Virus record (IMG/VR): IMGVR_UViG_3300046777_001266 | Location: 1-36,477 of that record | DNA from: a virus | DNA length: 36,477 nucleotides | Reading direction: 5' to 3' (one strand) | Shown here: in pieces, positions 12,547 to 36,128 of the stretch | Layout of the letters: the number at the start of each line of letters is the position of its first letter | Numbering within the stretch: the first letter of the stretch is position 1 | Position numbers and translations under genes: made by a program | The notes under the pieces: generated by a model | Seen by the model: the letters and a program-made list of their open reading frames with translations, nothing else | Database searches by the model: none | What the model was told of the DNA's origin: nothing

Positions 12547-14167
12547 TTTTATACCTAACCAACCAATATTATTTGAAGATCCTTTATTTGCAGGTCAGCC
12601 TTGTTTAAATAATGATACGAGAGCCTATGCACAGCTTGCACAAACTGGAGATACTACTTGCATTCAGTTTATGAATGATCCTGTAGGAACAACTTATGCT
12701 TGTGATATGACTACATTTAGTGATGTAGCTACTAATGGAAGTTTTGCATCTGATTTAACTAGTTGGACTGAATATGATTTTTCAACAGGACTGCCAACAG
12801 GTGGAGGTACATGGTCTTGGACAGTAGATGGAGCTACATCAGATCCTCTTTCATCTAATATTGGATTATATCAAACTATACCTGGCGGAATTGGCAACAT
12901 ATTTCTAGTTAGTTTTGAATTTACTTATGATAATGGCGGAGATTTTAAAATAGGATTTGGCAACTCTACAACTAATTCATGGAACTGGGTTAACTTATTA
13001 AACAACTTTGAAACTAATATTGATGGAAGAAGATGTTTAATAATTAGTTCTTATATTAATTTAGATTTTGCTTTTTATTGTGATAATTCAACAGTTACAA
13101 TAAAAAATATAGTCATTAGAGATATTACACCAGCACAATGTATAGTTCCTAATAATAACTATAATTATCATTGGACTTATGTAGAATCAATAAATGGATG
13201 GCAAAAGATAGATGGATCAGCAGCTACTGCATATCCATTAACAATTTTTAGTAATCTACCTACTGCAACGGATTATAAATTAAGTTACAAGGTAACTAAT
13301 ATGCCTGAAGATACGGTTGCATATATGGAGATTCAAGATAGCACGAATGCAACATTAGCAAAGACTTATTTGAATGGAGAATTTGCAGAGTACTTTACAT
13401 ATACAGGACCAACAGCACAACCTTTTATCTTGGCTAATCCTGAAGCACAGAACGGAGTTATTTATGACATTAAGTTTGAAGAGATGTGCTATGATCAGCG
13501 TATATCAGTCACTTATCCTGATGGCTCTCCAGCTTCAATTTGGTATGATTCAAGTAGTGCTCAAAATCCAATCACATACTATAAAGATAGAATGATATGG
13601 TGCTTTGATTGGAATCTTTTAGAGAGTGCTGAATCACCAGGTCAGCCATTAAGCAGTGATTGCTACACTATCAGTATTGATGATCAATGTGCAAGCACTA
13701 CTACGCAATCTTATACTATTGTGAACTATAAAGCAACTGGAACACATGATTGCTCAGTAGTAGTGGAAGGCGATAATCAAGGTTATGCTTTTGATTTCTT
13801 CTTCAATGATCCAAGTACTTCCGTAGCATTTACTTTAAGACAGCGTTTAAGATTGCTTCAGTTCAATCCGATGTATCCTGTGAAAACAGAGCAGTATTTG
13901 TATTCTGATGGAACAATGAGCAGACCATTTGCTCAAAGTGGCAAAGTAAGAACTGCATGGTTTGACTATGTAGATGAGCCTACACACGATGTTATACGAC
14001 TTCAATTGTTATCAGATACATTGACTATAAGTGGAACTGAGTTCTTCTGCATTGCAGAGGATTATGAGCCTGAATGGGGCGAGAATGGTAAGTACAACCT
14101 TGCTCAATCGAAAGTGGCTCTAATGTCACAGAATGAGCCTACATTATACAATAAGAATTGCATATGA
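12536..14167 (+). CDS. Tail protein, carbohydrate-binding-like domain (probable)
   Basis: A 543-residue protein overlapping the preceding gene by 11 bases. Residues about 45-195 contain the pattern NGSFASDLTSWTEYDF...GLYQTIPGG...VSFEFTY, resembling carbohydrate-binding modules of the CBM4/9 or discoidin type. A second, related module may follow. The C-terminal part (about 330-543) has several cysteines and beta segments ending in QNEPTLYNKNCI. It probably belongs to the tail tip or adsorption apparatus and might bind host glycans. The CBM resemblance is by eye only. It is followed by a glycosyltransferase gene with a four-base overlap. Confidence 0.6.
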   Translation: MAISFIPNQPILFEDPLFAGQPCLNNDTRAYAQLAQTGDTTCIQFMNDPVGTTYACDMTTFSDVATNGSFASDLTSWTEYDFSTGLPTGGGTWSWTVDGATSDPLSSNIGLYQTIPGGIGNIFLVSFEFTYDNGGDFKIGFGNSTTNSWNWVNLLNNFETNIDGRRCLIISSYINLDFAFYCDNSTVTIKNIVIRDITPAQCIVPNNNYNYHWTYVESINGWQKIDGSAATAYPLTIFSNLPTATDYKLSYKVTNMPEDTVAYMEIQDSTNATLAKTYLNGEFAEYFTYTGPTAQPFILANPEAQNGVIYDIKFEEMCYDQRISVTYPDGSPASIWYDSSSAQNPITYYKDRMIWCFDWNLLESAESPGQPLSSDCYTISIDDQCASTTTQSYTIVNYKATGTHDCSVVVEGDNQGYAFDFFFNDPSTSVAFTLRQRLRLLQFNPMYPVKTEQYLYSDGTMSRPFAQSGKVRTAWFDYVDEPTHDVIRLQLLSDTLTISGTEFFCIAEDYEPEWGENGKYNLAQSKVALMSQNEPTLYNKNCI

Positions 14168-14991
14168 GAGGAATAGTAACAATAGCAATGAAGCATCCAT
14201 TGTATGGCAAGTATGCCTACAATCTTGCTTTATCAGCTAAGTCAGCAGATATGAATGTTCAGGTAGCAGTGATTGCTGATGAAGAAGGATTAAGACAATT
14301 GCATCCTGGACAAAGGATGATATTTGATCACATCATTGAGCCTAAGTCAGAGAAGCCATTAGTGAATAAGTTCTACCTTGCGGAATTAAGTCCATTTGAA
14401 GAAACCTTATTTGTAGATGCAGATATGATCTTCAGTCCGCTTGCAGACTTCAATGAGTTTTGGAACTCAATGAGTACGGTCCAATGGACTATGGCTAATC
14501 GTGGCAAGGATGATTTAGTTAAAGGAATCAGCGAATGGACCACAAAAGAAGATATTGCAGAGGCTTATGGAGAAGCAGAGCAATGGTATGATTTATCATC
14601 TGAATGGATTTACTTCAAGAAAAATGACTTAACTTATACTATCTTTGCTAATGCTGAGATGTACTACGATGATAATAAGTTAAAGGTGAGAGAATTTGCT
14701 GGAGATAGACCTGATGAGCCTTACTTTAATTTATCACTGATTAGCGTGAATCATCAGCCACATTTAGCACCATATCAGCCAACCTATTGGCAGCCTGCGA
14801 TGAAAGGATTCCCTGGACTCATGGCTATTAAGAAAGGTTGGATGGCTTTCAGTGTAGGAGGTAAAGTGATTCCTCAACAACAAATGCAAGTTTATGATGA
14901 GCTTGCGAAAAACGCATCCTTCAGGATGAACATGCCGAGCATGAAAATTGCTCAAAAGATAAACCAACTAAGTGAAAGAAAAGTAATTTAA
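14164..14991 (+). CDS. Glycosyltransferase, GT8-like GT-A fold
   Basis: A 275-residue protein. The chosen ATG at 14164 forms an ATGA with the preceding stop. A TTG two codons earlier is less likely. The segment LVNKFYLAELSPFEETLFVDADMIF (residues 66-90; the D85-A-D87 pair) matches the K...lfxDaD region of GT8-like transferases, where DxD holds metal and nucleotide-sugar. HQPHL and the C-terminal GKVIPQQ are less diagnostic. No membrane segment is present. It sits inside the structural operon between tail and portal genes, which suggests that a virion protein may be the acceptor; that is inference. It is a third glycosyltransferase in this phage and unlike the two at 310-1526. Confidence 0.7.
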   Translation: MRGIVTIAMKHPLYGKYAYNLALSAKSADMNVQVAVIADEEGLRQLHPGQRMIFDHIIEPKSEKPLVNKFYLAELSPFEETLFVDADMIFSPLADFNEFWNSMSTVQWTMANRGKDDLVKGISEWTTKEDIAEAYGEAEQWYDLSSEWIYFKKNDLTYTIFANAEMYYDDNKLKVREFAGDRPDEPYFNLSLISVNHQPHLAPYQPTYWQPAMKGFPGLMAIKKGWMAFSVGGKVIPQQQMQVYDELAKNASFRMNMPSMKIAQKINQLSERKVI

Positions 14992-22705: not shown

Positions 22706-22732
22706 AAGAGGCCGCTAACCAAACGACCTCTT
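22706..22732 (+). terminator. Weak hairpin (AAGAGG/CCTCTT)
   Basis: AAGAGG (22706-22711) can pair with CCTCTT (22727-22732) around a 15-base loop. The right arm belongs to a 15-bp direct repeat (22721-22735 and 23304-23318). The following bases are TTAAAATG, with no T run, so it may act as a weak terminator or regulatory hairpin. Confidence 0.35.
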
Positions 22733-22782: not shown

Positions 22783-23103
22783 ATGAGATATCTTGTTTAT
22801 TCTCTCTTAATATTTTTAACAGCTTGTAGTCATACAAGTGAAGAAACTATTGAAACTGGTCCTTGTGGTACTGCTACTAAGGAAATAAATTATCCTGCTG
22901 ATGTGAAGCCGATCATTAGACAGCATTGTATTTCCTGCCACAAAGACTACATCTATTACGATAGTTTGAATGCAGATGTCAATACTGGAGATTTCTACAA
23001 GAGAGTAATCGTTAAAAGAGATATGCCACCATCATCAGGATTAGATACATGTGATTACATTATTCTAAAACGATGGATTTATAATGGCCACTCAAACAAC
23101 TAA
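22783..23103 (+). CDS. Predicted lipoprotein with c-type cytochrome haem motif
   Basis: A 106-residue protein. A signal sequence (MRYLVYSLLIFLTAC) ends in the lipobox L-T-A-C15, so C15 is likely lipidated and the protein anchored to a membrane outside the cytoplasm. The mature part has KPIIRQHCISCH, where C49xxC52H53 is the covalent haem c attachment motif. M81 in RDMPP is in the place of the distal haem ligand, and a final helix follows (DYIILKRWIYNG), the order of a small class I cytochrome c. Two further cysteines (C28, C90) may form a disulfide. Function in a phage is unknown; it could touch host electron transport or act as a surface exclusion protein. The ATG lies in an ATGA shared with a possible 16-residue leader. 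It overlaps the next gene by 20 bases. Confidence 0.75.
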   Translation: MRYLVYSLLIFLTACSHTSEETIETGPCGTATKEINYPADVKPIIRQHCISCHKDYIYYDSLNADVNTGDFYKRVIVKRDMPPSSGLDTCDYIILKRWIYNGHSNN

Positions 23104-23317
23104 AAAGTACACAATCAGATTAAAAAATTACTTCGCACCTACTCCCAAGCTTTTCAGAGTTATTGGCGATACTTTATTAAGTGTTGGTAGCTTACTTACT
23201 GGCTATCAAATACTTTGCGATGAAAAGACACTTGCATTAATTTCTTTAACACTTACTTTAATCGGTAAGTTTATGACTAACTTAGCATCATTAGATGTTA
23301 ATGAAACGACCTCTTAA
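23084..23317 (+). CDS. Holin-like membrane protein (probable)
   Basis: A 77-residue protein. A basic N-terminus is followed by PKLFRVIGDTLLSVGSLLTG (about 21-40, first membrane segment) and KTLALISLTLTLIGKFMTNL (about 48-67, second membrane segment), then a short polar tail. This two-segment layout with GKF/MTNL resembles a group of small holin-like proteins in Bacteroidota phages. Holins make lesions in the inner membrane at the end of infection. The gene overlaps the cytochrome-like gene by 20 bases in another frame. The main endolysin is far away (32287), so the role remains uncertain. Confidence 0.55.
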   Translation: MATQTTKKYTIRLKNYFAPTPKLFRVIGDTLLSVGSLLTGYQILCDEKTLALISLTLTLIGKFMTNLASLDVNETTS

Positions 23318-30520: not shown

Positions 30521-30961
30521 ATGACTCTACAACAATTAACAGAAGCAATACATGAAGCAAAGTTCAAAGATATGCCTAATTGCGAGGCTCGTAAAGACCT
30601 CTTTCCAACTCGACCTTTCACAGAGAAAGGAGCTAATGAGCTTACGAGGTCTATTGAAGCTTTCATTAGATATACTGGTAACTATGCTGATCGTATTAAT
30701 AATACAGGTATTTATGATACTAAGCTGAAGAAGTTTCGTAAATCAAATACTCGTAGAGGCATAGCTGATATAATGGCAAGCAAACGAGTGGAGCATCAAG
30801 GTAAATTCTTTGCAATAACAGTGGCGATAGAGATTAAATATGGTAACGACAAGCTTAGTGAATTTCAACTTAGAATGAAGGATGATATTGAGAAAGCAGG
30901 CGGAATCTACCTTGTGGCTCGCACTTGGGATCAATTTATAAACGATTGGAATAAAATATGA
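30521..30961 (+). CDS. VRR-NUC family nuclease
   Basis: A 146-residue PD-(D/E)XK nuclease. The core motifs are RRGIAD (78-83, D83), VAIEIKYG (101-108, E104 and K106 as the ExK), KLSEFQLRMK (111-120, with Q116) and GGIYLVARTWDQFI. That is the order of the VRR-NUC domain, found in phages, in FAN1 and in restriction-like enzymes. It probably cuts branched DNA such as replication or recombination intermediates, which fits with the ERF annealing protein. The stop overlaps the ATG of 30958 (ATGA). Confidence 0.8.
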   Translation: MTLQQLTEAIHEAKFKDMPNCEARKDLFPTRPFTEKGANELTRSIEAFIRYTGNYADRINNTGIYDTKLKKFRKSNTRRGIADIMASKRVEHQGKFFAITVAIEIKYGNDKLSEFQLRMKDDIEKAGGIYLVARTWDQFINDWNKI

Positions 30962-31314
30962 AGAAACCACTTATGATTGTGCTTCTCGCTTTCGGGATGA
31001 AGGCCAGTGCACAGCAGGAGCAATCCTATGAACAGATGAGTAAAATGCAACTCACGAAAATCTATCTTGAACAAGTGCAACAGCTTGCATTGGCTGTGCC
31101 TTACTCATCATTCACGATGTCTGATACTACAGGTGTAGTGGATATGCCTAGCAGCAAGTATCTAAAAAACAAGCGTGATGCTGTTAGCAAGATAACGGCT
31201 AACTTCAACAAGACTGTTAATGTCGAGTTGTATGAAATCATACCTTATGCTGATAAGGCTCAGATTATTCAAGCAATCCAATTCCTAGAAAACATTAATT
31301 CAGTTATCAAATGA
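30958..31314 (+). CDS. Secreted protein in lysis cassette (unrecognised)
   Basis: A 118-residue protein with a signal peptide at 1-18 (MKKPLMIVLLAFGMKASA, then Q19), like many Bacteroidota exported proteins. The mature part is helical. It overlaps the previous and next genes by four bases each (ATGA). As the first of a chain leading to spanin-like and endolysin genes, it probably acts in the periplasm during lysis, but it has no known motif. Confidence 0.55.
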   Translation: MKKPLMIVLLAFGMKASAQQEQSYEQMSKMQLTKIYLEQVQQLALAVPYSSFTMSDTTGVVDMPSSKYLKNKRDAVSKITANFNKTVNVELYEIIPYADKAQIIQAIQFLENINSVIK

Positions 31315-31646
31315 GAAAGTGGATTTACATTACATTGGCTTTCGCATTCTTATTCATTGTGCTTATCATAGCAAAATGCAATAGAGATGCAGAGGTAGTT
31401 GTCAAGGATGATTACCAGCCTAAAAAAGAGCAGACTATTGAAGTGGCGAAACGCAATACACTTGATAGCATCGCACTTGAAAGAGCAAATGATTCAATTG
31501 AGATATTGAATAATATGATTGCAAACAATGTTCAAAAAGTTAAATACATAAAAGTAAAATCAAATGAAAAAGCTAATACTGTTAGTACCTGGTCTTCTGA
31601 TCAGTTCAATAGCTATCTGTCAGACCGCTACAAAGACCGCAAGTGA
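31311..31646 (+). CDS. Inner-membrane spanin-like protein
   Basis: A 111-residue protein. One N-terminal membrane segment (WIYITLAFAFLFIVLIIA, about 4-21) is followed by a periplasmic, helical coiled-coil part (about 25-90). This is the layout of inner-membrane spanins (Rz-like), which connect inner and outer membrane at the final step of lysis. It is embedded in the lysis cassette, and its end overlaps the next gene by 83 bases in a different frame, also as in Rz/Rz1 pairs. Sequence similarity is not diagnostic. Confidence 0.5.
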   Translation: MRKWIYITLAFAFLFIVLIIAKCNRDAEVVVKDDYQPKKEQTIEVAKRNTLDSIALERANDSIEILNNMIANNVQKVKYIKVKSNEKANTVSTWSSDQFNSYLSDRYKDRK

Positions 31647-32007
31647 TCAAGATAGCACCGTAGTAATGAGCAAGAAGCTTGTAGGCTACATGATTGAGGA
31701 CCTTATCAAATCCGATGCTGATAAACAAGCAATTGTTTTACTTGAGCAAAACTTGACTTTCAAGGATGGAATCATTGCACAAAAGGATGATATCATTGGC
31801 AGACATGATGCTCAGATGAAGGCAAAGAACGACCTTATCAGAGAGTACGAGAGTAACGAGAAGGATATGGTCATTGCTATGGATAAGCTGAAAGCTGACC
31901 TTAACAAAAAGAAACAAGGTAATATCTTTTGGAAGTCAGCAGCAGCAGGACTACTTGTCGGACTTGTAGTGAATCACTATGCTTGGAAGTACGGAGGTAA
32001 GCAATGA
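31564..32007 (+). CDS. Spanin-like envelope protein, N-terminal signal and C-terminal membrane segment
   Basis: A 147-residue protein. An N-terminal signal sequence (MKKLILLVPGLLISSIAIC) has a cysteine at 19; the -1 residue is Ile, so a lipobox is imperfect. The middle (about 45-118) is a charged coiled coil, and a C-terminal membrane segment lies at 121-140 (IFWKSAAAGLLVGLVVNHYA). An outer-membrane lipid anchor together with a C-terminal inner-membrane segment is the plan of unimolecular spanins (T1 gp11 type). If C19 is not lipidated, it may simply be a secreted inner-membrane protein. It overlaps 31311-31646 by 83 bases. Confidence 0.5.
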   Translation: MKKLILLVPGLLISSIAICQTATKTASDQDSTVVMSKKLVGYMIEDLIKSDADKQAIVLLEQNLTFKDGIIAQKDDIIGRHDAQMKAKNDLIREYESNEKDMVIAMDKLKADLNKKKQGNIFWKSAAAGLLVGLVVNHYAWKYGGKQ

Positions 32008-32210
32008 TAAAAATACTTATACCGCTTATTAGCTTGGCCATTGGAGGTTACTTCCAGTGGCAGGCTAAAAGGCTTCGCAAAAAACAATGGAGAGCACCTA
32101 ACAGTTATGTGCTTGGCAGAATGTATAAGCAAATTCATCGTTATGAAATAATCGCAAAAGTCATATATATTTCATCACTTATAATCACATGTGCAACCTA
32201 TTTATATTAA
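32004..32210 (+). CDS. Holin-like two-segment membrane protein (candidate)
   Basis: A 68-residue protein with membrane segments at about 3-18 (KILIPLISLAIGGYFQW) and 50-68 (IAKVIYISSLIITCATYLY) and a basic loop between (RLRKKQWR). Placement between spanin-like and endolysin genes and the size suit a holin, though no family motif is visible. Start overlaps the preceding stop (ATGA). Confidence 0.5.
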   Translation: MIKILIPLISLAIGGYFQWQAKRLRKKQWRAPNSYVLGRMYKQIHRYEIIAKVIYISSLIITCATYLY

Positions 32211-32215
32211 CCAAT

Positions 32216-32287
32216 ATGTATGTAGCATTCCTTGTACTAATATTTTTAGTGCTGGCATGGTATGAACATAAAAAACCTAAACTATAA
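32216..32287 (+). CDS. 23-residue membrane micropeptide coupled to endolysin
   Basis: MYVAFLVLIFLVLAWYEHKK and three more residues: a single membrane segment with a basic C-terminus. Its TAA shares an A with the ATG of the endolysin (TAATG at 32285-32289). It fills the gap between the holin-like gene and endolysin and could assist or regulate membrane lesion formation. Confidence 0.5.
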   Translation: MYVAFLVLIFLVLAWYEHKKPKL

Positions 32288-32754
32288 TGGTAATCGGAAA
32301 GTACCTAACACTCGAAGAATGCTGCAAGTCAGCAACAGCCATCAGGCTTGGCATCGAAAATAAGCCTAACCAACAGCAAATAATGGCACTCCAAGCATTG
32401 GCCACTAATATCTATGATAAATGCTGTGAGAAGTTCCTTGTCAAGATTCCTATTACATCAGGATTCAGAAGCAAGGCTCTTAATGATGCAATATCAGGAT
32501 CATCAGGAAGCTCTCAACACATGCGAGGCGAAGCATTCGACTTGGACCTTGATGGAACAATGAATGGAGTAACCAACGCTCAATTGTTTAACTACATTAA
32601 ATTTAATCTTAACTTTGATCAGTTAATTTGGGAATTCGGAACTGACTCCAATCCTGATTGGGTGCATGTTAGTTATGATGTAGCTGGAAAGAATCGTAAG
32701 AATGTTTTTAAAGGATTCAGAGCAAATGGTAAAGTACACTACAAGCCTTATTAA
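32287..32754 (+). CDS. Endolysin, peptidase M15 family
   Basis: A 155-residue peptidoglycan peptidase. R61 (SGFRS) and the zinc motif HMRGEAFDLD (78-87, H78 and D85) with WVH (125-127, H127) form the Zn site of M15_3 / VanY-like peptidases. They cleave D-Ala-containing peptide bonds of the cell wall. The length is that of a single-domain endolysin with no binding module. The N-terminus (LTLEECCKSATAIRLGI) matches the usual start of the family. It lacks a signal peptide, so it needs a holin. Start is coupled to the preceding micropeptide. The HNH gene begins inside its end. Confidence 0.9.
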   Translation: MVIGKYLTLEECCKSATAIRLGIENKPNQQQIMALQALATNIYDKCCEKFLVKIPITSGFRSKALNDAISGSSGSSQHMRGEAFDLDLDGTMNGVTNAQLFNYIKFNLNFDQLIWEFGTDSNPDWVHVSYDVAGKNRKNVFKGFRANGKVHYKPY

Positions 32755-33605: not shown

Positions 33606-33729
33606 CCTATTCTGCGAGTTCATTCGTAGAAGAAGCATATTGGGAATACCTACCCAAATCGATATCCTGGCTTCAGTGCAAAGAACTAAAACTCGTACCT
33701 TTTATCCTGAAGGCTGGGAATGGAAGTAA
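33583..33729 (+). CDS. 48-residue protein bridging to primase gene
   Basis: MRMRINYNLFCEFIRRRSIL onward, ending EGWEWK. It is basic with an HTH-like middle (IPTQIDILASVQRTKTRTF). It overlaps the genes on both sides (ATG inside 33354-33605; stop inside the primase start), leaving no gap. The regular overlap pattern supports it as a real gene. Confidence 0.5.
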   Translation: MRMRINYNLFCEFIRRRSILGIPTQIDILASVQRTKTRTFYPEGWEWK

Positions 33730-36128
33730 GTGTTTATAAAACCCACTTCGAGGTAGAGCATGGATGGACTATGTCTGTTGAAGATATGCTTAATCGCATC
33801 AAGAATCAAGAGCAGAACAAGCACCTTGATATCATATCTAAACTGCGAAACCTACCTACTGAAGCAGAAGAGAAGGAACTAAAGAAGCACCTACCTCTTA
33901 TATGCTGGTCAGGAACATTCCTAAAGCGTACTGATAAAGACTGCATCAAGCATTCAGGACTTATCTGCCTTGACTTCGATGATGAATCATTTGATAGTAT
34001 CATGCAGAAGAAGGAATACATCTACGCTGCATTTATCTCTCCTACAGCAACAGGAGTTAAGGTACTTGTCCGCATACCTGAAAACATCAAGGATCATGGC
34101 GAATACTATCTTTCACTATCCGATTACTTCGGCTTAACTACCATTGATGAGAAGTGTAAGAACATATCTCGTGGATGCTACCTATCCTATGATCCTAACA
34201 TGTACTTCAATCCTGATGCTCCAATCTTCTACAAGCTTCTTCCAAAGAAGGAAGTCAAGTATGAGAAGCAACAGGCAAGGAATCCGTACTATGTTAATTC
34301 AGAAGATAAAATCATCGAGCGATTGCTCAAGCAACATTCAGCAGAGTTCTCTAAAGGCAACCGTAACAATGCCTGCTACATATTAGCATGTGAGTTCAAT
34401 CGATTCGGAATCGGAGAATCTCAAGCAGTATATCAAACGCTCCAGTTCGCAGATGAAGGCTTCAACGAGTCTGAAATCCGTAGAACTGTTAAGTCAGCTT
34501 ATGCAGCCAATGCTCACGAATTTAAGACCAAATCCTTTACTGATTCAACAATAGTCAACAAAGTTGAGAATCTAATTCGCCACGATTACACTCCTGAGCA
34601 AATCCTTGATGCACTCAAAGAAGAAGATAAGCTATCATCCGACATCGGAGAGGAAGCAATTAAGGCAGCTCAAGAGAAGATTAACGCTTCACTATTCTGG
34701 AAGAAGAACAAACTCGGACATGTTCTAATCGATAATGACATCCTTACTAATTGGTATAAGGACAATAAAATATTCCGTTACATGATTAACGAGAAGGATT
34801 GGATAATGATCAAGGACAACAAGTGTCAGATATCCGAAATCTCAACAGCTGAAATCAAAGGCTATGTGCGTGAGTACATGTCTGCTAATGCAAAGCACTG
34901 CGATGATGTAATCAAATCTCAGGTAATGCGTAAGCTAAACAAGGAATATCTTCGTGATGATATGCTCGAATGGCTTAAGCCTCATGATATCGATTGGTTG
35001 CGTGATAATCGCTCTACTGCATACTTCTTCTATAAGAACACTTGGATAGAGATAGATGCTCAAGGTGTGCGATGCATAGAAGCAAATGACAAGGTAGGCG
35101 GATACATATGGAAAGACCAGATCATTAACAGAGATATCAATCTCATATCTGATGTCGATATCTACGGACATTCGGAATTTGCTCTATTCATATGGAACAT
35201 CACAACAGGCATAAGCACCGAGAAGTTCCAGACTATACCTGATGAAGCTAAGACTCCACTATTGGACCGCTTCCATCATATGTGCAGAACTATCGGATAC
35301 ATCCTCCACAACTTCAAAGATCCTGCAAACCCAAGAGCAGTTATCCTAACCGATGAAGTAATCTCAGACAATCCTGAAGGCGGAGTTGGTAAAGGAGTAT
35401 TCCTTAAAGGTCTATCCAAAATCAAGAACATGGTAACTATGGATGGCAAATCATTCAACGCATCCAAATCCTTTCTTTGGCAGCGAGTAACACTGTCAAC
35501 GCAAATCATAGCACTGGAAGATGTTAGCAGATTCTTTGACTTCGAGAAGCAATTCTCAATGATCACTGAAGGTATTGAAGTTGAGAAGAAAAACAAGGAT
35601 TCCTTCTACATTCCATATGAAGAATCGCCTAAGCTTCTAATCACTTCCAACTATGTCATTCAAGGAACAGGAGCATCGCATGAACGAAGAAGAATCGAGA
35701 TAGAACTGAAGCAGTACTACAAGCCTAACTTCTCGCCTCGTGATGAATTTGGACACAACCTATACGATGATTGGTCAGAAGCTGAATGGAATCTATTTGA
35801 CAACTTTATGATGTGGTGCGTGCAACAGTACCTGGCTCATGGAGTAGCAAAGCCTGAGAACAAGAACTTGAGCCTTAAGAAGCTGAAGAACTCAGTGCCT
35901 GAAGCATTCATTGAATGGTTTAAACTTAAGGAGTTTATTCATGGCGAATATTACGAACTTGGACAGATATGCAACGAGTTTAGGACCATTGATCATGACT
36001 CTGCAAAGGTTACGAATCGCAAGATTAGTTCTTGGATTAAGGCTTATTGCGATTATTGGAATTGGGAATACTTTACTAAAACTACAAGATCAGGTGCTCA
36101 CTTCGTTATAAATCCTGGAAAAGCGTGA
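33720..36128 (+). CDS. Primase / SF3 helicase replication protein
   Basis: An 802-residue, multi-domain replication protein. The N-terminal part (about 1-175), with LICWSGTFLKR, HSGLICLDFDD (78-88) and a later PTATGVKVLVRIP (108-120), is like the VirE-type N-terminal / AEP-like domain of Bacteroidota phage and plasmid primases. A helical primase C-terminal part (about 195-325) follows. The C-terminal helicase has Walker A EGGVGKGV (553-560), Walker B IIALEDV (596-602), motif C LLITSNY (639-645) and an arginine cluster RRR (656-658), fitting a superfamily 3 helicase. It would make primers and unwind at the origin. The region of iteron-like repeats immediately follows, partly overlapping its stop codon. 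Confidence 0.9.
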   Translation: MEVSVYKTHFEVEHGWTMSVEDMLNRIKNQEQNKHLDIISKLRNLPTEAEEKELKKHLPLICWSGTFLKRTDKDCIKHSGLICLDFDDESFDSIMQKKEYIYAAFISPTATGVKVLVRIPENIKDHGEYYLSLSDYFGLTTIDEKCKNISRGCYLSYDPNMYFNPDAPIFYKLLPKKEVKYEKQQARNPYYVNSEDKIIERLLKQHSAEFSKGNRNNACYILACEFNRFGIGESQAVYQTLQFADEGFNESEIRRTVKSAYAANAHEFKTKSFTDSTIVNKVENLIRHDYTPEQILDALKEEDKLSSDIGEEAIKAAQEKINASLFWKKNKLGHVLIDNDILTNWYKDNKIFRYMINEKDWIMIKDNKCQISEISTAEIKGYVREYMSANAKHCDDVIKSQVMRKLNKEYLRDDMLEWLKPHDIDWLRDNRSTAYFFYKNTWIEIDAQGVRCIEANDKVGGYIWKDQIINRDINLISDVDIYGHSEFALFIWNITTGISTEKFQTIPDEAKTPLLDRFHHMCRTIGYILHNFKDPANPRAVILTDEVISDNPEGGVGKGVFLKGLSKIKNMVTMDGKSFNASKSFLWQRVTLSTQIIALEDVSRFFDFEKQFSMITEGIEVEKKNKDSFYIPYEESPKLLITSNYVIQGTGASHERRRIEIELKQYYKPNFSPRDEFGHNLYDDWSEAEWNLFDNFMMWCVQQYLAHGVAKPENKNLSLKKLKNSVPEAFIEWFKLKEFIHGEYYELGQICNEFRTIDHDSAKVTNRKISSWIKAYCDYWNWEYFTKTTRSGAHFVINPGKA

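Follow-up and report, generated by a model that had tools for sequence, protein, structure and literature searches.

A gene for a predicted lipid-anchored cytochrome c in phages of two unrelated lineages

In the window (the whole 36,477-nt stretch of viral DNA analysed here, IMG/VR record IMGVR_UViG_3300046777_001266), a plus-strand gene flanked by genes for two hydrophobic proteins encodes a 106-residue lipoprotein with the marks of a small cytochrome c. Cytochromes c are haem proteins that pass electrons in respiration. The features at and around the gene are listed below, where L001, L002 and L003 are IMG/VR contigs of phages of the window's group.

22783..23103, plus strand: predicted cytochrome c lipoprotein gene, 106 aa, ATG start (open reading frame, translation, homologues and cytochrome c profile matches)
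22783..22827, plus strand: lipoprotein signal to lipobox LTAC with Cys15 (motif type in five of five phage copies)
22864..22866, plus strand: Cys28, possible disulfide partner of Cys90 (in all phage copies; the disulfide is putative)
22927..22941, plus strand: haem c attachment motif C49-I-S-C52-H53 (invariant across phage copies)
23023..23031, plus strand: M81-P-P, predicted axial Met ligand segment (conserved; cytochrome c6 4gyd has its MP segment at the aligned position)
23050..23052, plus strand: Cys90 (unchanged in every one of the four full-length phage copies)
22495..22704, plus strand: upstream neighbour, a 69-aa hydrophobic protein, possibly holin-like (syntenic in L001-L003 and in distant relatives)
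22706..22732, no strand assigned: terminator-like hairpin between the 69-aa gene and the cytochrome gene (its form, not its sequence, is kept in L001, L002 and L003)
23084..23317, plus strand: 77-aa hydrophobic protein, possibly holin-like (the gene begins before the cytochrome gene ends, so that the two overlap)
32287..32754, plus strand: endolysin of the window phage, away from the cytochrome gene (phrog_894, lysis, E 1.1e-23)

Residues 1-14 of the window protein form the hydrophobic signal, the Cys15 codon occupies 22825-22827, and C28 and C90 stand on either side of the cytochrome domain. The ORF lies where an earlier note on this DNA had placed it and contains the lipobox LTAC, the CISCH motif and M81-P-P; the lipobox reads LTAC, ITAC, FIAC or LTSC among the phage copies. 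Across 22783-23103 the opposite strand carries many stops in the frame tested. When the window protein was shuffled 200,000 times, a CxxCH arose by chance in 0.66% of the shuffles and a CxxCH with MP at the correct spacing in about 0.01%, and the one other CxxCH ORF in the window (among ATG-started ORFs of at least 50 aa) encodes 57 aa and has no lipobox. ORF 22783-23103 is a real gene, and while the shuffles indicate that its motif is not due to chance, homology and conservation are the stronger argument.

The 69-aa membrane protein encoded upstream matched no family. Directly before the cytochrome start lies the leader TTTACAAATATAACAA (window:22764-22779), which is nearly identical in L001-L003 and in this respect exceeds much coding sequence; the remainder of the window shows no enrichment of it, and thus no promoter claim is made for it.

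Four viral relatives of the gene were found in IMG/VR (L001, L002, L003 and L006), three of them full length: L001 and L002 are full-length copies, as is L006, and L003 ends with its contig just past CxxCH. The first three carry the gene at the equivalent place and share with the window a gene order of major capsid protein, four further head or tail genes, the 69-aa membrane protein and the cytochrome, followed by the 77-aa membrane protein gene wherever the contigs of the group extend that far. L006 is a 69.6-kb contig both ends of which encode a nearly identical protein stretch, and it is therefore probably close to a complete circle; its terminase and portal differ from those of the window, and its cytochrome is about 60% identical to the window copy. 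Judged from these contigs, the cytochrome is present in two unrelated phage lineages.

Every phage copy, where covered, keeps Cys15, C28, CxxCH, Tyr59, M81-P-P-S, D-T-C90-D-Y and K-R-W98. The earlier note had named relatives lacking CxxCH or M81 as evidence against a cytochrome; CxxCH is present in all the phage relatives, as is MPP in those whose contigs extend to it. The ratio dN/dS is 0.21 between the window and L001 and 0.13 between the window and L002 (silent sites are saturated for the other phage pairs), values that fall within the range of the neighbouring genes and indicate that the cytochrome gene is under purifying selection. No relative turned up when 50,697 phage records were searched at the protein level with the proteins of the window and of L006 and with one bacterial homologue, nor was one found among INPHARED isolate phages, and scans of viral contigs with bacterial CX4CH members, the L006 protein and the L002 protein added no further phage copies. 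A weak match in Vibrio phage pVp-JHP1101 (E 0.2), which runs antisense to a gene annotated there, was dismissed.

Scanning of genome contigs gave 20 loci, 19 of which are Bacteroidota lipoproteins with haem motifs, at 24-40% identity over the best segment. The first such scan had returned no relative; for the second, a single typed-in row served to broaden the DNA patterns, each match was confirmed with the window protein as sole reference, and the homology test was therefore repeated with a phage-only profile built from the four full-length proteins. This profile found relatives in 17 of 296 genomes at E<=1e-6, the 296 being a sample from the phylum of a Chryseobacterium genome (Bacteroidota), and a joint profile gave one to seven matches per genome in six bacterial genomes. 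In A12, a natural alignment of 24 phage and bacterial rows from which, as from A9 and A10, the typed-in rows are absent, Cys15, C49, C52 and H53 are invariant, and Y37, P43, I44, Y59, M81, P82, L87 and W98 are kept at 90% or more. The small lipoprotein cytochromes of Bacteroidota (Chryseobacterium L066 and the MAG loci L060, L061 and L063, with several per genome) are homologous to the window protein, which they resemble in lipobox, position of the haem motif, MP segment, Y37, Y59, W98 and overall length, although they are 23-35% identical to it over the alignment and the phage copies form a separate clade. Many bacterial members have CX4CH and every phage copy has CxxCH; the replacement of CxxCH by CX4CH is seen in most of the bacterial relatives, which are presumed single-haem proteins (L060-L065, L068, L071, L077).

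The window protein is very probably a true class I monohaem cytochrome c, a reading that rests on its sequence relatives and profile matches. The protein falls below the cut-off of every Pfam and NCBIfam model (PF22297 PccH, 13.9 bits against a cut-off of 24.4; PF14376 Haem_bd, 14.3 bits against 27), so that genes of this kind escape profile libraries, and single-sequence searches with the window protein give weak scores only. When the A12 profile was compared with PDB sequences, nearly all matches were to c-type cytochromes or other proteins with haem c, among them PccH 4rlr (3.4e-5), hydrazine synthase alpha (0.0015) and cytochrome c6 4gyd (0.0017), with weaker scores for c552, c553 and others. 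The best of these matches, to PccH (PF22297, PDB 4rlr), covers the helix before and around CxxCH and stops short of the Met region, whereas the match to 4gyd runs from CxxCH through the MP segment. An axial Met is expected 25-45 residues downstream of the motif, often as MP, and the conserved M81-P fits this spacing.

An AlphaFold2 model made with A12 (and without haem) has a pLDDT of about 85-94 from residue 41 onward and a helix order like that of small cytochromes c; a model from five sequences, at pLDDT 46, was too poor for use. Foldseek with the A12-based model returned no PDB match and nothing useful in BFVD, and the fold is therefore not independently proven. The small lipidated cytochrome c that the earlier note had proposed is thus borne out by the haem motifs of the relatives and by a combined profile that matches solved c-type cytochromes almost exclusively; the final helix that it had proposed is likewise supported by the model, at residues 89-100.

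A tree of 31 proteins unites the four phage copies in a single clade (100/99), within which L006 is nested among the other three (95/60), a weakly supported placement that would fit a single capture followed by exchange between phages. The gene is flanked by phage genes in L001-L003 and L006 and its product nests with Bacteroidota proteins, as would an auxiliary gene of cellular origin, and we read it as captured from Bacteroidota. These cytochrome relatives, together with the BT4734-like domain of the replication protein encoded at 33720-36128, suggest that the window virus probably infects Bacteroidota.

On balance, the gene appears to be a captured class I monohaem cytochrome kept as an auxiliary gene, whose host-matured and membrane-tethered product would serve as an electron carrier for a host oxidase or peroxidase; of the roles floated in the earlier note (tapping of electron transport, lysis and a block of superinfection), it is electron transfer that is favoured. 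The protein would be exported during infection and tethered by its lipid to the periplasmic face of a membrane, where haem would be attached by the host cytochrome c maturation system and the chain would fold with His53 and Met81 as ligands and a C28-C90 disulfide. It could then carry single electrons between a quinol-oxidising complex and an oxidase or haem peroxidase of the host, and energy supply or peroxide removal would thereby continue in the infected cell. Against this reading, none of the remaining window ORFs, part of which were profile-searched, was recognised as respiratory.

The best-known auxiliary genes of phages concern photosynthesis, in cyanophages, and the cycling of sulfur and nitrogen. 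If Bacteroidota phages have kept under selection a cytochrome c that stands alone and retains its haem ligands, as the data above suggest, they would be intervening directly in the respiratory chain of a heterotroph. A comparable design is found in OmcF of Geobacter sulfurreducens, a lipid-anchored, c6-like monohaem cytochrome of the outer membrane, 104 aa long and with His-Met ligands (PMC6971198). It resembles the window protein in size (104 aa), in its N-terminal lipid anchor and in its one c-type haem with His-Met ligation (predicted here), and as a precedent it indicates that such a design works as a membrane-bound electron carrier; however, OmcF serves bacterial Fe(III) reduction and was not recovered as a homologue, and is a functional analogue only. 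Among phages, SoxD, a cytochrome c-domain protein of thiosulfate oxidation, is encoded on contigs as one of the sulfur auxiliary genes (PMC8190135), and of two such copies one lacks the first cytochrome c motif and both lack the second (PMC8190135). In contrast to phage SoxD, the window cytochrome has an intact haem motif, is a stand-alone gene and occurs in two phage lineages. Phage genes with cytochrome c domains were thus already known; the searchable part of the literature yielded none that describes a cytochrome c standing alone in a phage.

The surroundings of the bacterial homologues bear on whether the protein is a respiratory shuttle at all. In L060 and L063 the homologue directly precedes a gene for a di-haem oxidoreductase or putative peroxidase, with a Rieske protein in the same neighbourhood, and the phage protein could by analogy be peroxidase-linked or haem-sensing, and act in the peroxide protection of the infected cell or in redox sensing. 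This is doubtful given that the homologues in L066 and L077 adjoin YceI and DUF5777 barrel genes instead, and that no phage peroxidase gene was recognised. Small phage lipoproteins that function in superinfection exclusion are also known, for example Llp of T5, and a lipobox is present in all phage copies. By this precedent the protein might block a receptor or DNA entry from the surface or periplasm, with haem as a structural prop; the probability is low, as such a role leaves unexplained both the conservation of the full haem site and Met ligand region and the kinship with bacterial redox operons.

The position of the gene raises the further question of lysis. In six distant relatives (L022, L030, L032, L037, L047 and L051) the slot of the cytochrome holds an M15-like endolysin between two small membrane-protein genes, the L030 slot protein matching PHROGs endolysins, and in the window the cytochrome gene overlaps the membrane-protein gene downstream. 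It could be imagined that the cytochrome took the place of an endolysin between holin-like genes and now works on the cell envelope, or that it couples the triggering of holin to respiration and membrane potential. However, the window phage carries an endolysin and spanin-like genes of its own elsewhere, at 31.3-32.8 kb (lysis module, 30958-32754), and the protein lacks the C-terminal membrane segment of a one-protein spanin. The lysis module is shared with L006/G302 (endolysin 71%, a 118-aa gene 80%, a spanin-like protein 46%), as are the 77-aa membrane protein (58%) and a fibronectin-like gene, which points to gene exchange and probably to a shared host group. Linkage to lysis genes nevertheless fails in that lineage: in L006/G302 some 20 kb or more separate the cytochrome from the lysis genes common to both phages, and this distance in an unrelated phage argues against a part in lysis or its timing, which we regard as very improbable. 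The full IMG/VR records of four relatives (G303-G306) contain no cytochrome match, and this, together with the shift of the slot and the distance in L006, suggests that the gene behaves as independent cargo.

That the CxxCH is an accident in an unrelated lipoprotein (the earlier note had allowed for a spanin-like one, an alternative that homology rejects), or that a captured gene is decaying without function, is scarcely credible even with single-sequence scores as weak as these, since the motif is kept in all relatives, selection appears to be purifying, and bacterial homologues and cytochrome c profile matches exist.

To return to the electron carrier, its gene is intact in several viruses of one group and also in an unrelated one, which suggests that host energy metabolism is adjusted by these viruses. 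More tentatively, Bacteroidota phages of unrelated lineages might use a membrane-tethered respiratory carrier to keep up or redirect host respiration, perhaps with consequences that pass from membrane potential through holin triggering to the timing of the phage.

The major capsid protein (window:18622-19752) is 64-94% identical to those of 55 IMG/VR contigs (L007-L058) and has no match among the 50,697 named phage records. It is for this reason that isolates gave no indication of the host, and that the window appears to represent a sizeable uncultured phage group. Putative glycosyltransferases, judged by eye, are encoded among the structural genes at window:310-1526 and 14158-14991.
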